IMG/VR virus record: IMGVR_UViG_3300028920_000216
Span: 1 to 28,880 of that record
DNA from: a virus
DNA length: 28,880 bases
Strand: one strand, 5' to 3'
A program made the translations under genes and the position numbers. Positions 1-13,118 of the stretch are shown in pieces (position 1 is the first letter of the stretch; the number at the start of each line of letters is the position of its first letter). The notes below the pieces were generated by a model. It did no database searches. It was not told where the DNA came from and saw only the letters and a list, made by a program, of their open reading frames with translations.

Positions 1-208
1 ACAAAACATCCTGTATTTTCTGTTGGCAATTATAACAAAGATCACGCATTGCATAAGCAACTGTTTGACCATTACCCACTGCTCGTTTTAATCCGATTAG
101 TTTGTTGTTACTGGATTTATTAAAATTAATTGTCAGTTCTCCAAATCCATCTTCCCAGCTTCCCGCTGTTACATCTTTACCGCATCGGTCGCAAATAGTT
201 CTATTCAT
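1..208 (-). CDS. Small zinc-finger protein, 3' end outside window
   Basis: The visible 69 residues start MNRTICDRCGKDV and contain two CxxC pairs (CDRC near residue 6, CYNC near residue 58). This suggests one zinc site formed by the two ends of a small domain. The C-terminus lies beyond the left edge. ATG at 208 overlaps the stop of the upstream gene (ATGA), and a GGAGG-type ribosome site lies just upstream, so the start is well supported. The function is unknown. Similar small treble-clef or zinc-ribbon proteins are common in phage early operons. Confidence 0.75.
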   Translation of the reverse strand, partial: MNRTICDRCGKDVTAGSWEDGFGELTINFNKSSNNKLIGLKRAVGNGQTVAYAMRDLCYNCQQKIQDVL

Positions 209-399
209 TGTTCACCGTCCTCCTGTTTACGTGGAAGTTCATTATAAAGAGCTACAGTGCGCTCCTTGCCCTCGTTAAAATTAATTGTCATACCGCAGTT
301 GTTGCAGTATACAAACCAGTCACTATTCATAGGATAGTGATTGAGTTCTAGTTCGGTAAAGTTACAATTGGGACATCGTTTCAGTTTAATCTCGCTCAT
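205..399 (-). CDS. Lar-like zinc-ribbon protein
   Basis: 64 residues starting MSEIKLKRCPNCNF. The pattern CPNC, about 20 residues, CNNCG, then a short helix ending near LYNELPRK resembles the restriction-alleviation (Lar) family layout of CPxC...CxxCG...A-x-x-WN-x-R, although the usual WN is LYN here. Lar proteins of Rac prophage modulate type I restriction, but most phage members are untested. The reading frame is open further upstream, into the structured RNA at 434-620. The ATG at 399 with its nearby purine-rich site is the natural start. It overlaps the next gene by ATGA. Confidence 0.7.
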   Translation of the reverse strand: MSEIKLKRCPNCNFTELELNHYPMNSDWFVYCNNCGMTINFNEGKERTVALYNELPRKQEDGEQ

Positions 400-433
400 T
401 GTTCTCCGTCCTTCCTGTTGGTTTATAAATATG

Positions 434-620
434 GATTTGTTCGACATCCCAAGGAGGACGGCAGCGCGGGATGTGCCGCCACTCAGCAACGGGCGCTCAT
501 ACGCCTCGCCCCCGCTTCCAGGGTGAAGGGCGTTGCTGTGATCCCCGTGGTTTTCGGCTTTTGACCGTTCCAGTCCCGCGCACGGCCTACCGCCCCCACG
601 TTCAGGATGTCGAACAAATC
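434..620 (-). ncRNA. GC-rich structured RNA element bounded by a 16-bp inverted repeat
   Basis: Positions 605-620 and 434-449 form a perfect 16-bp inverted repeat (GATTTGTTCGACATCC and its complement). The interior is much richer in G+C than the flanks. Read on the minus strand the interior folds into nested helices. One is an 11-bp helix (GGGGGCGGUAG with CUGCCGUCCUC) that needs G-U pairs on this strand. Others are GCGCGGGA/UCCCGCGC, CAGCAACG/CGUUGCUG, and a GACUG-GAA-CGGUC hairpin. The wobble pairs favour a minus-strand RNA. Size, GC content and inverted ends are reminiscent of HEARO/omega-type RNAs of IscB/IsrB elements, but no nuclease gene is present, so that identity is only a suggestion. 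Confidence 0.7.
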
Positions 621-720
621 GTTTCACAACTACCTCATTTGAATATTCGGTCTGGTATCTTAACAGCTTTTTTCCATGGGCTATAAGATACAGGATCTGT
701 ATGTTCTATGAGTGTTTAGT

Positions 721-993
721 TCATTTGCCCTCTGAATCTATCCAAGATTCTATATACGTCTCTGCTCCAGAGGTATTATTGAACATAGAAGTCGTTTTTG
801 CTTTTCTTCTAAGTGTATAAGTTACCCTTAGCTTCAATCCCATGAATTCAAGACTCTGACCATATTTTATGCCACTATTAACACCATCTATCACAAAACA
901 CCACTTATGCATTACTGGATTAATGTAGCCTGCAAGATAACATCTATGTTCGTTTTTGTTATGAATAATATATGGTATTTCATTTTTAATCAT
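721..993 (-). CDS. Hypothetical protein
   Basis: 90 residues starting MIKNEIPYIIHNKNEHRCYL. I chose the ATG at 993 because GAAGGAATA precedes it. An in-frame ATG at 1017 has no ribosome site. The sequence looks like a small mixed alpha/beta domain with beta-rich stretches around residues 15-65 and no motif I recognise. It is followed by about 100 bases of unremarkable sequence before the structured RNA at 434-620. Confidence 0.55.
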   Translation of the reverse strand: MIKNEIPYIIHNKNEHRCYLAGYINPVMHKWCFVIDGVNSGIKYGQSLEFMGLKLRVTYTLRRKAKTTSMFNNTSGAETYIESWIDSEGK

Positions 994-1075
994 TATTCCT
1001 TCGCTTTCCTGATACATCTGAATTGTGTAATTTTTTATCTTTCATTCTGGTGATTTCTTAAATAAATATGGAGTT

Positions 1076-1108
1076 TATAAAACCCTCACCACACATCAAG
1101 GGTGAGGG
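1076..1108 (-). terminator. Rho-independent terminator
   Basis: On the minus strand CCCTCACC (1108-1101) pairs with GGTGAGGG (1090-1083) around a 10-nt loop and runs directly into TTTTAT. This is an 8-bp GC-rich stem with a short U tract. It would end leftward transcripts that come from 1203 and beyond. Confidence 0.75.
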
Positions 1109-1127
1109 CACATACTAAATATGTTGT

Positions 1128-1196
1128 TTATTTCATTGCCAGGCCTCCTTTTTCTTTCACCTCTTCATCCGTCATTTTACGTCTAACCCCGTCCAT
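1128..1196 (-). CDS. Possible 22-residue peptide
   Basis: An ATG-started frame encodes MDGVRRKMTDEEVKEKGGL and four more residues, a charged peptide lying between the 1203-1442 gene and the terminator at 1076-1108. No clear ribosome site is seen, apart from weak purines. It is listed because the composition is protein-like and the space would otherwise be empty. It may equally be untranslated sequence. Confidence 0.2.
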   Translation of the reverse strand: MDGVRRKMTDEEVKEKGGLAMK

Positions 1197-1202
1197 CCAT
1201 AC

Positions 1203-1442
1203 TTAGGATATTATTTTGCTTCTACGGATAAGGCACACCTCTCTGAGCCAAGCATTTCCATAATGTTTGAATGTTTTAACAACTCCTTCTTTATTTCTCA
1301 TAGCATCAATATGTTCTCTATATGTGGGATTGAAATGTCGTAGACGTTTTAAGGCAAATTCGCATGCTTTTTCTTTTTTTCTAAAAACTTTAATAAATTG
1401 ATGGTTTTCTCTGGGGTCATTAGCAACTACATAAACAATCAT
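1203..1442 (-). CDS. Hypothetical small basic protein
   Basis: 79 residues starting MIVYVVANDPRENHQFIKVF. The upstream GAGGAG at a normal distance fixes the start at 1442, and this ATG overlaps the stop of the preceding cysteine-rich gene (ATGA). Lys/Arg-rich, with a beta strand followed by a long helix (residues 20-45). I do not recognise the family. It is the last confident gene before the terminator at 1076-1108. Confidence 0.65.
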   Translation of the reverse strand: MIVYVVANDPRENHQFIKVFRKKEKACEFALKRLRHFNPTYREHIDAMRNKEGVVKTFKHYGNAWLREVCLIRRSKIIS

Positions 1443-1609
1443 AAATTCTCCTCTTCTTTCTCTTCTTCTGATTTGTATTCGCACTCACATTTAATATGAT
1501 CAACCTCTTGCTCATGGCCCTCTTTACAGCGGCAAAAATTATTGCAACAGGTATGAAAAACAGCATGGATACAACCTTCACATATTTCATTGTGTGAAAA
1601 CAGACTCAA
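1439..1609 (-). CDS. Cysteine-rich metal-binding protein, TTG start
   Basis: 56 residues. Translation begins at TTG 1609, placed 6-7 nt after AGGAGGTG and overlapping the stop of the upstream gene as TTGA. It ends overlapping the next ATG (ATGA). The sequence contains nine cysteines (CEGC, CC, CRC, CEC arrangement) with several histidines, followed by a Glu/Lys-rich tail. This points to one or two zinc sites. The reading frame, ribosome site and both overlaps fit this operon's pattern, so I regard it as real despite its size and start codon. The function is unknown. Confidence 0.65.
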   Translation of the reverse strand: MSLFSHNEICEGCIHAVFHTCCNNFCRCKEGHEQEVDHIKCECEYKSEEEKEEENL

Positions 1610-5324: not shown

Positions 5325-6185
5325 TTATATCGGAGTATTCATCCAGGACTCAAGACTGGATTTTTTCTTCTTCCCACTCCTGTACTTTCCTTCAAAAATT
5401 TTGACAACAGTATCGTCCGATCGGAAGGCAAAATCAAAGTCGGCCTTCCAGCCTCGGTCATTCTCTCCGAGCAGGAATGGAGATTCTGTTATGTGAGCGA
5501 TGTACTGGGTAAAGCTGTCAAGGATATCATTGCCGTCATAGAGTTCATGGATTACCTTTGATCGGTTCCGAATTGCTCGCTTTCGTTTGTCGGTGAGCTT
5601 CTGTATTTTTGGCAGTCCGAATGCATACGCATTCCACAGAGTAACGACCTCTTCGTAAGGGGGGTATATATCTTTATCCTTTACTTCCTTAACCTCCTTT
5701 ACTTCCTTAACTTCCTTAGAGGCTTGTAACTCGTTGATGCTTGCCTCTTTACAACGATCGCTGGTAGCATCGCTGGTAGCACCGCTGGTAGCACCGCTGG
5801 TAGCACCGCTGGTAGCATCGCTTGTAGCATCGCTTGTCGCAGATTTGCAACCAGCGGAACCATTCTTTTTGCGCAGTCTGCTGAAGTCTTTCATAGACTT
5901 ATATTTCAATACTTCGAACGACGACAGATCAGACTGATTCTTTGCTCGGGTAAACTTTATATATTTGCCATCAAGAACCTTGATATTCCTCATGACCGTA
6001 TGTCTACTCACACCAAGGTCTGAAGCCATGTCTCGGATTGAGACTTTGTATATTCCCTTGTCTGGTTCAAACATTTTCGCATTTACGAGAATATGCACGT
6101 AAACAGAAAGAGGCGATCCAAACAGCTTGGGAATGTGTTCATCTATCCCTACGCTTAGGGGAACGAATAATTCATCTGTTTCCAT
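5325..6185 (-). CDS. Replication initiator-like protein with internal repeats
   Basis: 286 residues. Residues 45-70 (SIRDMASDLGVSRHTVMRNI) form a clear helix-turn-helix. A low-complexity linker follows, with seven Ala-Thr-Ser-Asp/Gly units (about 115-142) and a KEV repeat (about 155-168). The C-terminal domain ends with FLLGENDRGWKADFDFAF and VVKIFEGKY, the signature of phage O/DnaD-type initiators that contact helicase or loader. The DNA behind the linker is a 12-bp tandem repeat (5757-5840) that could be the replication origin, as in lambda O. The helicase-loader-like gene follows. Confidence 0.7.
   Translation of the reverse strand: METDELFVPLSVGIDEHIPKLFGSPLSVYVHILVNAKMFEPDKGIYKVSIRDMASDLGVSRHTVMRNIKVLDGKYIKFTRAKNQSDLSSFEVLKYKSMKDFSRLRKKNGSAGCKSATSDATSDATSGATSGATSGATSDATSDRCKEASINELQASKEVKEVKEVKEVKDKDIYPPYEEVVTLWNAYAFGLPKIQKLTDKRKRAIRNRSKVIHELYDGNDILDSFTQYIAHITESPFLLGENDRGWKADFDFAFRSDDTVVKIFEGKYRSGKKKKSSLESWMNTPI
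5757..5840. repeat. Seven 12-bp tandem repeats, candidate origin iterons
   Basis: Seven consecutive 12-bp units of the form AYCGCTGGTAGC: 5757, 5769 (ATCGCTGGTAGC), 5781, 5793, 5805 (ACCGCTGGTAGC), 5817 (ATCGCTTGTAGC) and 5829 (ATCGCTTGTCGC). They encode the Ala-Thr-Ser-Asp/Gly linker of the initiator-like protein. The position inside the initiator gene parallels the iterons of lambdoid origins. A T/C-rich pyrimidine tract lies beside it at 5683-5719 (A/G-rich on the other strand). A simple codon-repeat expansion is the alternative. Confidence 0.8.
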
Positions 6186-9956: not shown

Positions 9957-9986
9957 GTTATACCAGAATTTAGCATTGCAATTCAA
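9957..9986 (-). promoter_or_regulatory. Leftward extended -10 promoter at left edge of the array
   Basis: On the minus strand TTGAAT (9986-9981), 18 bp, then TGG-TATAAC (9965-9957), an extended -10. It would serve 9649-9918 and the genes beyond. The same core TGGTATAAY occurs at 13005-13013 on the other side of the array. Confidence 0.6.
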
Positions 9987-10083
9987 AGGTTTTATCTAGC
10001 ACTGGGTCCCCCAGTAGCGGAGGATTTGTAGACCTTATTGTATCATTACGAACGTGTCGTCCGCTGCTACAATTGAATGCTAA
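9970..10083. ncRNA. Structured unit closing the left end of the array
   Basis: Outer pairing TTAGCAT (9970-9976) with ATGCTAA (10077-10083) continues into CAATT (9979-9983) with AATTG (10071-10075), then GTAG..CGGA (10014-10021) with TCCG..CTAC (10060-10070). The nested helices enclose about 115 bases with no protein gene. Its right-hand part (minus-strand 5' side) overlaps the -35 region of the leftward promoter. Strand and function are undetermined. Confidence 0.5.
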
Positions 10084-10108
10084 GGGGAAGGCATAGGCTT
10101 GATTAACT

Positions 10109-10124
10109 TGTTTCACGTGAAACC
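10109..10124. other. parS-like palindrome
   Basis: TGTTTCACGTGAAACC matches the widely conserved bacterial chromosomal parS (TGTTTCACGTGAAACA) at 15 of 16 positions. The central 14 bp form a perfect palindrome. It is not part of one of the array's 7-3-7 hairpins. Host ParB/Spo0J binds such sites in many bacterial phyla. Confidence 0.6.
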
Positions 10125-10288
10125 CGTAACGGATTTCATAGGGCCATTCTAAGTTCTCATATCTCTGTGCCCTTGAACTCATCTACCTGATGAGTTCGAG
10201 GCCACGTAGAAGGTAGGTGATGATTTAATGCAATATATGTGTATCACATATCCAGGCAATGGCGATTCCAAATGTATCAAACATCGAC

Positions 10289-10311
10289 GCCTTCAGGGGC
10301 AGCCTGAAGGC
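10289..10311. ncRNA. Array stem-loop
   Basis: GCCTTCAGG (10289-10297) pairs perfectly with CCTGAAGGC (10303-10311) around a 5-nt loop. It is the main stem of the unit between the first two 7-3-7 hairpins. Confidence 0.6.
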
Positions 10312-10392
10312 AAGTGAGTGTGATATTGTTTTACGGCAAAGCAGCTGTTAACAGATGCATATACGAAAGCCATGTCCTGATGTTATATTTGA

Positions 10393-10442
10393 GGCCTGAA
10401 GACTCTGGTCATCATGCAATGATGACCTCTCGCTTCAGGGCC
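10393..10442. ncRNA. Array two-helix hairpin
   Basis: Outer helix GGCCTGAAG (10393-10401) with CTTCAGGGCC (10433-10442, one bulged G). Symmetric 5-nt internal loop. Inner helix GGTCATCAT (10407-10415) with ATGATGACC (10419-10427) and a GCA triloop. Confidence 0.65.
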
Positions 10443-10522
10443 TACAAAGTATCGTGTTTGTTATGATTCTATCATGGATGTATCATCCATTGAGCGACAT
10501 TCAATATGAATACAATAATTAT

Positions 10523-10552
10523 CGCGGGCCATATCTTCCGATGTGGCCCGCG
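10523..10552. ncRNA. Array 13-bp hairpin
   Basis: CGCGGGCCATATC (10523-10535) pairs with GATGTGGCCCGCG (10540-10552). The one non-Watson-Crick pair is T-G on the + strand. The loop is TTCC on + and a GNRA-type GGAA on minus, so the strand cannot be decided from it. Confidence 0.65.
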
Positions 10553-10931
10553 TGTAAATATAATTAATGAGGCTTTTATACGTCCAAGATGTTTCATCTT
10601 GATAGACAATGTGCTCAAGTTTCTATGGTATAGGTGAGGGAGGGCACCTCCGTCCGCGTGTTGTTGTCAAACAACTGCGACGGGGAGCTCCTCCAAACAC
10701 TATCCCAGTGTTTTCTTTGCTGCCTTAACCCTGGAAAGTATCTTTCCAGTCTTTCCACATGCTATAATTATAATATGAACGGATCACAGCCGCACTTGAC
10801 CATGGTGACGACTCGCTCGTCCCCAGGGTCCAGGGCGTCTGGATCTCGTGGCATAAAGTGTTCCATACGTTATTTTTCATCCAGTATGTTACATACTGCA
10901 GAGCCATGTGATAAATCCTAAACTACATAGA

Positions 10932-10971
10932 AGTTCATCCTGAAGATTCGAAGACTCTTCGGGGTTGAACT
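10932..10971. ncRNA. Array nested hairpin
   Basis: AGTTCA (10932-10937) with TGAACT (10966-10971), an inner CC/GG, then GAAGA (10942-10946) with TCTTC (10956-10960). Confidence 0.5.
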
Positions 10972-11054
10972 ATGAAACTTGCTGTAGCTAACTTCAGGGG
11001 AAGAGCGTATCGCTCTTCATTGTCGATTTTTGAAATATCCAAATACTATCTTGT

Positions 11055-11126
11055 GACAACCCCCAAACGCTGAAGCTCGCACTCTCCTACCAGGAGAGGC
11101 TGAGCTGCATGGCGTGATGCGTTGTC
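11055..11126. ncRNA. Array multi-helix unit
   Basis: GACAAC (11055-11060) with GTTGTC (11121-11126) encloses AGCTC (11075-11079) with GAGCT (11102-11106). The terminal helix is CTCTCCT (11082-11088) with AGGAGAG (11092-11098) and an ACC triloop. The terminal helix is also 7 bp with a 3-nt loop. Confidence 0.6.
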
Positions 11127-11350
11127 TTATCAGGTACTTATGCAAATGCATGCGTATCGCATGCTTTGACGATATCCAAAGGCAAAGTATCCATGGAGCC
11201 CATGAGAGCAGACGTCGGAAACCATGTCACCGTCAGTAACATTCATTGATGTCATGGACCGATTATAGAGCGCCCAGATAGAATTATTGTTAATACATAT
11301 CGGCGGAAGCGTATCGCGTCCAATTACGATATCCAAATTATATATTCTGA

Positions 11351-11378
11351 GACCAGGATCCTAGAGAGGAACCTGGTC
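11351..11378. ncRNA. Array hairpin
   Basis: GACCAGG (11351-11357) with CCTGGTC (11372-11378), a single A-A mismatch, then TCCT (11359-11362) with AGGA (11367-11370) and an AGAG loop. Confidence 0.6.
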
Positions 11379-11460
11379 GGTGAGTGTATCTTGCTTTGTT
11401 TTTCTGTGAGGGCGTATCGCCCGCTAATGCGATATCCAATGGTGTGACATTATTATAAGA

Positions 11461-11502
11461 ACCAGCAGCAGGAGGTGCGTCCATGCAACTCCTGCTGCTG
11501 GT
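11461..11502. ncRNA. Array perfect 14-bp hairpin
   Basis: ACCAGCAGCAGGAG (11461-11474) pairs perfectly with CTCCTGCTGCTGGT (11489-11502) around a 14-nt loop. Confidence 0.7.
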
Positions 11503-11681
11503 AGTTTGTATCAGATGATTTATCGTCGCAATTGTATCAATTGCCGATTCGATATCCAAAGCTTATAGGGGTCCGAGATGCGTTGCAGCATGCGAAGCAT
11601 CATCAGCCACATATATAATCCATACTTATTGATTCTGTGCAGGTGTTTCTCCTGCAAGGGCGATATCCAAAACTTATAGCG

Positions 11682-11725
11682 TCACCACATCTGGGGCTAT
11701 CTTTTATGGCAGCGGATAGTGGTGA
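11682..11725. ncRNA. Array two-helix hairpin
   Basis: TCACCA (11682-11687) with TGGTGA (11720-11725), stacked on CTATC (11697-11701) with GATAG (11715-11719). A 9-nt bulge lies on one side. Confidence 0.5.
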
Positions 11726-11799
11726 TGTGTTGATATTTTCTTGTTTCTGTGTGAACGTAGCGCTCACGAGAGCGATATCCAAAGGTTACATTAAACCTG

Positions 11800-11858
11800 A
11801 GCTTCACACGGGTCTGTTGGCGAGCTAATAACAGCTCGCCACAGACAGTTGTGAAGCT
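11800..11858. ncRNA. Array long three-helix hairpin
   Basis: AGCTTCACA (11800-11808) with TGTGAAGCT (11850-11858), then GTCTGT (11812-11817) with ACAGAC (11841-11846), then GGCGAGCT (11819-11826) with AGCTCGCC (11833-11840). The loop is 6 nt. All 23 pairs are Watson-Crick with 3-nt internal asymmetries, one of the strongest structures in the window. Confidence 0.75.
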
Positions 11859-11939
11859 ACTAGTTGAGTTATAAACTTGCTGAGTTTCCTCGATCGGGAT
11901 GTATCATCCTGGTTGGCGATATTCTGTGCTAAAATTACT

Positions 11940-12011
11940 GGAAATCTGTCTCCCCCAGATTTCCGCGAGATCGTTAGGCAGAATCGTCAACGCGATTATG
12001 TGTTAACGATC
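11940..12011. ncRNA. Array unit with two hairpins
   Basis: GGAAATCTG (11940-11948) with CAGATTTCC (11956-11964). It is followed by GATCGTTA (11969-11976) with TAACGATC (12004-12011), enclosing an AATCG/CGATT helix. Confidence 0.65.
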
Positions 12012-12154
12012 CAAGATATTGTGTTGGGTTGTTAACGTAGAAAGCGTATCGCTTCCGTATACCACAAAAAAATATCTGCCATGCAAAGGTTATTATAAAT
12101 GCGAAACATATGAAATTTATGTGAGCATTTATGCTGCGCATCTTCGGTCTGCGT

Positions 12155-12191
12155 GATTATTCTTACTGCGAAGGATTCGCAGAGAATAATC
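12155..12191. ncRNA. Array two-helix hairpin
   Basis: GATTATTCT (12155-12163) with AGAATAATC (12183-12191) encloses CTGCGAA (12166-12172) with TTCGCAG (12176-12182) and a GGA triloop. Confidence 0.65.
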
Positions 12192-12295
12192 TTCGCAGCT
12201 CCCGTGAGATCGCAAGGTATTGTGTTTATTTTTTAGCTATCGGGAATGTACCATCCCCTTGAACCATGATAGATATCTTGTTATGCAAAGATTAC

Positions 12296-12342
12296 CGCAG
12301 ACAACAGTCTGCGTGAAAACCTTCATTAATACGTATTAATGA
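12296..12342. ncRNA. Array hairpin and 20-bp perfect palindrome
   Basis: CGCAGAC (12296-12302) with GTCTGCG (12307-12313). Then the perfect palindrome TCATTAATACGTATTAATGA (12323-12342), flanked by TGAAAAC/GTTTTCA. A related TCATTAA...TTAATGA pairing recurs at about 12363-12389. Confidence 0.6.
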
Positions 12343-12486
12343 CATGTTTTCATAGAAAACTGTCATTAACTACACGCTTGTATTAATGATAGCGTTTTCA
12401 AGGAATTGTATATATTTCTTTCCATCGAGAGAGTAACTCTCTCATTGACCATAAAGATATCTTATTCTACAATGAATTAAAGGGAG

Positions 12487-12510
12487 AATCCCAGAGCGAT
12501 CTCTGGGATT
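12487..12510. ncRNA. Array 10-bp hairpin
   Basis: AATCCCAGAG (12487-12496) pairs perfectly with CTCTGGGATT (12501-12510) around CGAT, flanked by a further GGAGA/TCTCC pairing. Confidence 0.65.
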
Positions 12511-12614
12511 GCAGTCTCCATTTTCGGTTCGATTATTGTGTTTCCTATTCGACATAGTATGCGTATCGCATACAGATACATATCTTCTGGCATCTGAATC
12601 TGGTAACATTGGAG

Positions 12615-12636
12615 CCGCCGCGTATACACGCGGCGG
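12615..12636. ncRNA. Array GC-rich hairpin
   Basis: CCGCCGCG (12615-12622) with CGCGGCGG (12629-12636) around TATACA, inside a TGGA/TCCA and GCATC/GATGC frame. Confidence 0.65.
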
Positions 12637-12882
12637 AAATCCATGTGTATTCTTTGATGCTTAAGCGTCATCAGCGTATCGCTGATAGAGCATGCCTTGT
12701 ATCTTGTCTTACATCGTTTTCAGAATGGTCCCCGTTCTCCATTGGAATGAACGGCAGACCTGATCTGATGCTGTGTTGTGGTAATTGTTGCTACGCACAG
12801 ATGTATCATCTGCATTATCATACAAAGGCAATTATCCATATGTTACAAGAGAGCGGCTTGTGCCCCTTGCAGTGAGCGTGGA

Positions 12883-12899
12883 GTTATTCCCCGAATAAC
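12883..12899. ncRNA. Array 7-bp hairpin, CCC loop
   Basis: GTTATTC (12883-12889) with GAATAAC (12893-12899) and a CCC triloop. It lies within a larger GTGCCC/GGGCAC and GCAGT/ACTGC frame. Confidence 0.55.
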
Positions 12900-13004
12900 C
12901 CAATAGCGAACTGCCCCTGGGCACTTATGTCCTCTGAAGTGGATTAACTTTTTATCCTATTGAAGTGTATCACTTCATAAAGCGATAAATATGCCTACAT
13001 CATA

Positions 13005-13013
13005 ATTATACCA
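13005..13013 (-). promoter_or_regulatory. Leftward extended -10 promoter entering the array
   Basis: On the minus strand TGG-TATAAT (13013-13005) is a perfect -10 with TG extension. The -35 region is poor (GTTAAA at about 17 bp). Transcription would run leftward through all 20 hairpins. Confidence 0.55.
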
Positions 13014-13051
13014 GAAATAAGTTTATTTTTAACGTAAAACAAAATTTAGAC

Positions 13052-13079
13052 TTGACAATAACTGAGAGCACTATATAAT
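13052..13079 (+). promoter_or_regulatory. Promoter of the rightward virion operon
   Basis: TTGACA (13052-13057), 16 bp, TATAAT (13074-13079): both hexamers are perfect consensus. The start lies near 13086, about 33 bases before ATG 13119. Confidence 0.9.
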
Positions 13080-13118
13080 TGAATTAAATCTTATTCCTTA
13101 CCATGGGAGGAACTAAAT

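Follow-up and report, generated by a model that had tools for sequence, protein, structure and literature searches.

The window, by which we mean the whole 28,880-nucleotide stretch analysed here, is virus record IMGVR_UViG_3300028920_000216, in which minus-strand genes form a block on the left and the head and tail genes, on the right, are plus-strand. Its head and sheath-like proteins have distant relatives only, in Salmonella phage Arash and the Vibrio phages D69, D148 and D181. Near the left end lies an inverted repeat with arms at 434–449 and 605–620, complementary at 16/16 nt and separated by 155 nt. An earlier note on this DNA had described perfect 16-bp inverted ends around a GC-rich island, and both are real: base composition predicts 0.002 inverted repeats of this kind per window, while the inner 155 nt are 67–68% GC, the highest value among all 155-nt stretches of the window (59% for the next-best stretch outside, against a window mean of 43%). 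The Lar-like gene said to lie next to the island was likewise recovered directly downstream, with its ATG at 399 and a match to PF14354 (E=8e-6) that falls slightly under the Pfam cut-off. The neighbouring open reading frame at 721–1017 has no relatives in IMG/VR.

Folded as RNA, the minus strand reaches −93.2 kcal/mol (z=−4.29), and the plus strand gives z=−4.27, with 0/200 shuffles equally stable in either case. Given such nearly equal scores, the strand cannot be picked by folding energy alone.

A second copy in an unrelated phage

An exact scan of IMG/VR with the 16-nt arm returned 22 stretches, of which only L004 and L021 are real copies, the others being single chance matches. L004 and L021 are contigs of a single phage species, 99.9% identical over ~27 kb; with two separate IMG/VR contigs carrying the copy, an assembly artefact is excluded. 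This relative encodes its own polymerase, exonucleases and portal protein, and differs from the window record in size (33.6 and 39.4 kb vs 28.9 kb) and in GC content (56% vs 43%). Comparison of the whole records reveals the element, matched at L004:2236–2454, as their sole DNA or protein similarity. As nothing else is shared, the element was transferred or inserted on its own, apart from the remainder of the genome. In both phages it has the same orientation and lies directly upstream of the Shine-Dalgarno sequence (SD) of a gene, yet these genes are unrelated, Lar-like in the window and SbcD-like in the relative. Comparison of the copies, together with folding and analysis of the edges, gives the following features in window coordinates.

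434–620, minus strand: the 16-bp inverted repeat of the earlier note with its interior, from arm complementarity
440–636, minus strand: element proper, 197 bp, reading GAGGTAGTTG... to ...GGGATGTCGAA on the minus strand, from the limits of similarity to L004 and the flanking 5-bp direct repeats
621–636, minus strand: conserved 5' leader GAGGTAGTTGTGAAAC, identical in the relative, where it also occurs once without the rest of the element, from comparison of copies
602–620, minus strand: 5' strand of the outer helix P1, GATTTGTTCGACATCCTGA, from folding and comparison
434–452, minus strand: 3' strand of P1, TTGGGATGTCGAACAAATC, of which 434–439 are probably flank, from folding and comparison
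562–636, minus strand: conserved 5' block, 66/74 aligned nt identical (89%), from alignment to the relative
563–587, minus strand: hairpin P2, GGCCGU...ACGGUC, G-U in the window and G-C in the relative, from pairing in both copies
487–561, minus strand: variable middle, without relation to its 88-nt counterpart in the relative, from alignment against shuffles
439–486, minus strand: conserved 3' block, 45/48 nt identical (94%), from alignment to the relative
458–482, minus strand: hairpin P3, GUGGCGGC...GCUGCCGU, U-G in the window and C-G in the relative, from pairing in both copies
435–439, no strand: CAAAT direct repeat (ATTTG on the plus strand) on the minus-strand 3' side, putative target-site duplication, from edge analysis
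637–641, no strand: CAAAT direct repeat (ATTTG on the plus strand) on the minus-strand 5' side, from edge analysis
205–627, minus strand: open frame that begins at a GTG after the leader GAGG, crosses the element and joins the Lar-like gene in the same frame, probably with no conserved protein, from open reading frames and comparison of copies

The most conserved portion is the first 32 nt, GAGGTAGTTGTGAAACGATTTGTTCGACATCC, comprising the leader and the first arm and identical at 32/32 positions. The natural unit thus extends 16 nt past the arm first noted, to position 636. Between the two blocks the 75-nt middle of the window and that of the relative resemble each other at the level of shuffles.

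The note's nested helices of 16, 11, 8 and 8 bp all exist in the window as complementarity, the inner ones being GGGGGCGGUAG/CUGCCGUCCUC (11 bp, with the three G-U pairs on the minus strand that the note had cited), GCGCGGGA/UCCCGCGC and CAGCAACG/CGUUGCUG (8 bp each), but only the outer helix is kept in the relative. There the 11-bp helix is broken, with 5/11 pairs lost, the first 8-bp helix carries one mismatch, and the third falls within the unrelated middle. The conserved helices are instead the outer helix, P2 and P3. On the minus strand, both copies form 30/30 of their pairs, whereas on the plus strand 24 and 27 of the 30 would form and the window copy would have 6 A-C mismatches. Read on the minus strand, each of the three substitutions inside these helices swaps a G-U and a G-C pair, and none is a double compensatory change. 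With two sequences to compare, this weakly favours a minus-strand RNA, as the note had proposed.

Further searches returned chance matches or none. Exact scans of IMG/VR with the 3' block, the leader and the 5' block found L004 and L021 only, the rest being coding coincidences; a match in L036 falls inside a gene and was rejected. The arm–gap–arm pattern occurs in five more stretches (L047–L051), which show no further resemblance and were judged coincidences, and all five matches of an 18-mer from the 3' block in a genome scan are due to chance. Distant blastn against phages and plasmids gave nothing convincing, the match in Pseudomonas phage UFJF_PfPro being a small protein gene, and covariance model R1, run over 398 genomes belonging to one phylum and over two phage records whose head genes are similar, made two chance matches. 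The element is absent from relatives of the SbcD-like neighbour (≤42% identity). The earlier note had named two outcomes that would together tell against it, the lack of a covariance-model hit and the lack of other copies with the same boundaries. Only the first occurred; a second copy with the same ends does exist, in one phage species. No empty site was found.

Open frame, leader and downstream genes

Part of the element recurs in the relative: at L004 2741–2778, ~310 nt from the full copy, CTCCGAGCAAAGCGAGGTAGTTGTGAAACGATTTTGTT (38 nt, 92% identical) repeats the leader upstream of a 79-aa frame. The folded body is absent from this site, and the sequence that follows is unlike that after the full copy. 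Possible readings are a decayed copy, an empty site and a separate signal.

The reading frame stays open through both copies, as it also does in 28% and 15% of shuffles. That the conservation reflects coding, either of a short protein or of an N-terminal extension (MKRFVRHPER...), is in our view very improbable. It would fit the GAGG–GTG start context and open frame of both copies, and the way in which the window frame joins the Lar-like gene while the L004 frame ends at an ATGA overlap with SbcD. However, a 1-nt indel early in the frame means that near-identical DNA is read in different frames in the two copies, and no protein is therefore conserved. Moreover, the conserved blocks (in an alignment read by eye) hold 2 synonymous and 2 non-synonymous changes besides the frameshift, with no synonymous excess, and tblastn with the frame against phages found no relatives.

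The position of the element also raises the possibility of a cis-acting mRNA leader, traded between phages, that would control the Lar-like or SbcD-like gene through a 3' block that pairs in the outer helix or, alternatively, with the SD region downstream; translation of the upstream frame could then open the outer helix. Consistent with this, orientation and position just upstream of the SD are the same in both phages, the frame is open in both, and all three helix substitutions preserve pairs (G-U to G-C). Furthermore, the 3' block has complements near both SDs: in the window its CCGUCCU pairs with AGGACGG at the SD (shuffle p 0.04), and in L004 its UGUCGAACG pairs with UGUUCGACA adjoining the SD (shuffle p 0.10). 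Complementarity to an SD is cheap, however, and the predicted folds differ, the SD being mostly free in the window vs paired in L004. The downstream genes are unrelated, the frames could be open by chance, and they shift between the copies. We therefore regard such a leader as unlikely, while noting that it would be an example of regulation traded between phages.

Rather doubtful, too, is a trans-acting phage small RNA, in which the leader GAGGUAGUUGUGAAAC and the structured body would act on a host or phage target. This would account for the complete conservation of leader and first arm, and for the G-U pairs on the minus strand; the leader that recurs upstream of another gene in the relative might represent a target or else a related site. 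Against it, a simple sigma-70 consensus scan of the minus strand over window 1–1600 detected no promoter-like site or terminator, and the middle is not conserved.

Edges of the element and its relation to known mobile elements

In the window, CAAAT stands immediately before GAGGTAG and again immediately after GGATGTCGAA; in L004 the repeated pentamer is CGCAC, found before TCCGAGCGAAGAGAGGTAG and once more immediately after GGATGTCGAA. Both copies are thus flanked by 5-bp direct repeats whose right edge is the identical element position. Both edges fitted, with a shared right edge, in 2/100,000 shuffles of the flanks, a p-value that is optimistic because the edges were partly chosen post hoc. 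The left edge in L004 lies within one base of the start of the 38-nt stretch that recurs in the same phage. Such repeats are what insertion leaves behind when it duplicates 5 bp of the target site, although the choice of edges weakens the support. The left ends nevertheless differ, the relative having 12 nt extra before GAGG, and the inverted repeat TTCGACATCC/GGATGTCGAA, present in both copies, leaves 22 nt outside one arm. In the 16-bp arm, the six outermost pairs seem to come from flank, CAAATC (the 5-bp repeat plus one base), that happens to pair with internal GATTTG. A similar CAGATC follows the element in L004 and can pair with the same GATTTG, which may be chance or a sign of target choice. 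Were the latter so, this would be a new class of mobile element whose folded strand helps to pick the target, GATTTG pairing with the flank at both sites and lengthening the outer helix: base-pairing-guided insertion of a structured nucleic acid with an exchangeable middle as cargo. We consider this scheme highly improbable. Directly past the element, L004 2190–2245 contains a further hairpin, CAGATCAGCGG...CCGCTGAATCTG, within GTCGAAC...GTTCGAC, which reaches as far as the SbcD-like gene's SD and would have been in place there before the insertion.

The best explanation, to which we give roughly even chances, is a mobile DNA element that is small (~200 bp) and non-autonomous, has a palindromic body with a strong fold, was carried between unrelated phages and is moved by an enzyme supplied in trans. 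Its ends are conserved, its middles and its carriers are unrelated, and direct repeats flank both copies; the palindromic body and a GC content far above that of the carrier also speak for it. From these features we infer insertion of a transposition type, a trans-acting enzyme and an importance of folding. The element would insert between phage genes and duplicate 5 bp of the target site. Because it encodes no enzyme, a transposase or recombinase would have to come in trans, from the host or from another element, and would act on the conserved ends of ~75 and 48 nt. The middle would be dispensable and would have been exchanged, and operon transcription (of the minus strand in the window) would let the element fold into a rod closed by the outer helix. 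Against this explanation, there is one relative only and one full copy per phage, whereas an active element should be found more often; the 12-nt difference between the left ends is at odds with the normally fixed ends of transposons, and the arms do not stand at both extremes. Neither an empty site nor a partner enzyme was found, a Pfam scan of 20 open reading frames of the relative, in a partner search that covered few records, detecting no transposase.

Miniature inverted-repeat transposable elements (MITEs), including the Tn3-derived TIMEs, are non-coding, with inverted repeats, conserved ends, an exchangeable middle and a short flanking direct repeat, and 5-bp direct repeats are typical of the Tn3, Tn7 and Mu classes. 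The present element resembles them in being non-coding and ~200 bp long, with inverted repeats near its ends, conserved ends around an exchangeable middle, a flanking 5-bp direct repeat (its edges partly post hoc) and copies in two unrelated phages. Unlike a MITE, it has one arm 22 nt inside and differing left ends, it is GC-rich and very stable as RNA, and no partner transposase was found in the few records searched. Rickettsia palindromic elements, which are in-frame selfish elements, are comparable by description only: they too are palindromic, sit in unrelated genes and leave the frame open throughout, whereas this element is phage-borne, lies between genes or at a gene start and has a flanking direct repeat.

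The earlier note had likened the structure to the HEARO/omega RNA class, possibly as an orphan or trans-acting element since it saw no nuclease gene, and had remarked that the 16-nt arm is about as long as an omega RNA guide. An Rfam covariance search, at the gathering threshold and at E≤10, of window 350–720 and L004 2180–2500 detected no HEARO (RF02033) match; four weak matches were returned, far below gathering scores, with no family near its threshold and no group I or II intron. The absence of RF02033 is not decisive, because that model matches only 65% of HEARO nuclease 5' UTRs (PMC9755519). The RRXRR (IscB/IsrB-type) domain was not matched in the window record or in either record of the relative, a weak negative, as these records are fragments and the control matched nowhere; the TnpB/OrfB zinc ribbon PF07282 was absent from the same three records, with controls matched in 6 genomes. 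No such nuclease having been found, and the downstream genes being Lar-like and SbcD-like rather than nucleases of this family, the HEARO/omega RNA reading is not supported. Nor is the arm a guide, since it is paired and 10/16 of its nucleotides are conserved element sequence. An orphan omega RNA of IscB/IsrB type could still use the leader as its 5' guide, the layout being such that ~16 nt precede a closed, structured body ~180 nt long and an open reading frame comes after it, with the leader sequence recurring elsewhere in the relative's genome. Omega RNA guides, however, vary with the insertion site, whereas these 16 nt are identical in two unrelated phages. The element is akin to HEARO/IscB omega RNAs (RF02033; PMC9755519) in being a GC-rich structured RNA of similar length upstream of an open reading frame, with a possible 5' segment beyond the fold; lacking a covariance match and a detected nuclease, and having a leader shared by unrelated phages, it is extremely unlikely to be one. 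Group I and II introns of phages are likewise mobile structured RNAs (PMC12350094, PMC11878797), yet the element matches no Rfam intron, is intergenic and has no exon junction.

Our conclusion, from comparison of the sequences, is that the element is structured, probably mobile and of a type without prior description. That it is a real and conserved small palindromic phage element, new, apparently mobile and outside Rfam, we hold with moderate confidence, because the verdict is based on two copies. Tiny non-coding mobile elements are little described in compact phage genomes. If the mobile-element explanation is correct, a family shared by unrelated phages and marked by its conserved ends, its exchangeable middle and its 5-bp footprint would reveal a route for small modules between phages, and would point to a mobilising enzyme.

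Other features of the carrier genomes

Window 9980–13080, 3.1 kb without plausible genes between the two gene blocks, is dense in hairpins and holds all 14 of the GTATC-apex stems counted in the window (0.08 in shuffles). A motif of CGATATCCAA type repeats there every ~100–155 nt, and 10940–11840 has an RNA fold z of −8.4; the region has no credible Rfam match and no phage blastn match. At 5735–5854, a 12-bp tandem repeat (CGCTGGTAGCAC) within a replication-initiator-like gene (5325–6185) encodes repeated ATSG/ATSD. In the relative phage, L059 3420–9116 (record G002) carries radical SAM genes, a TET-associated glycosyltransferase and a uracil-DNA-glycosylase-type gene, a content which suggests that the DNA of this phage is hypermodified.
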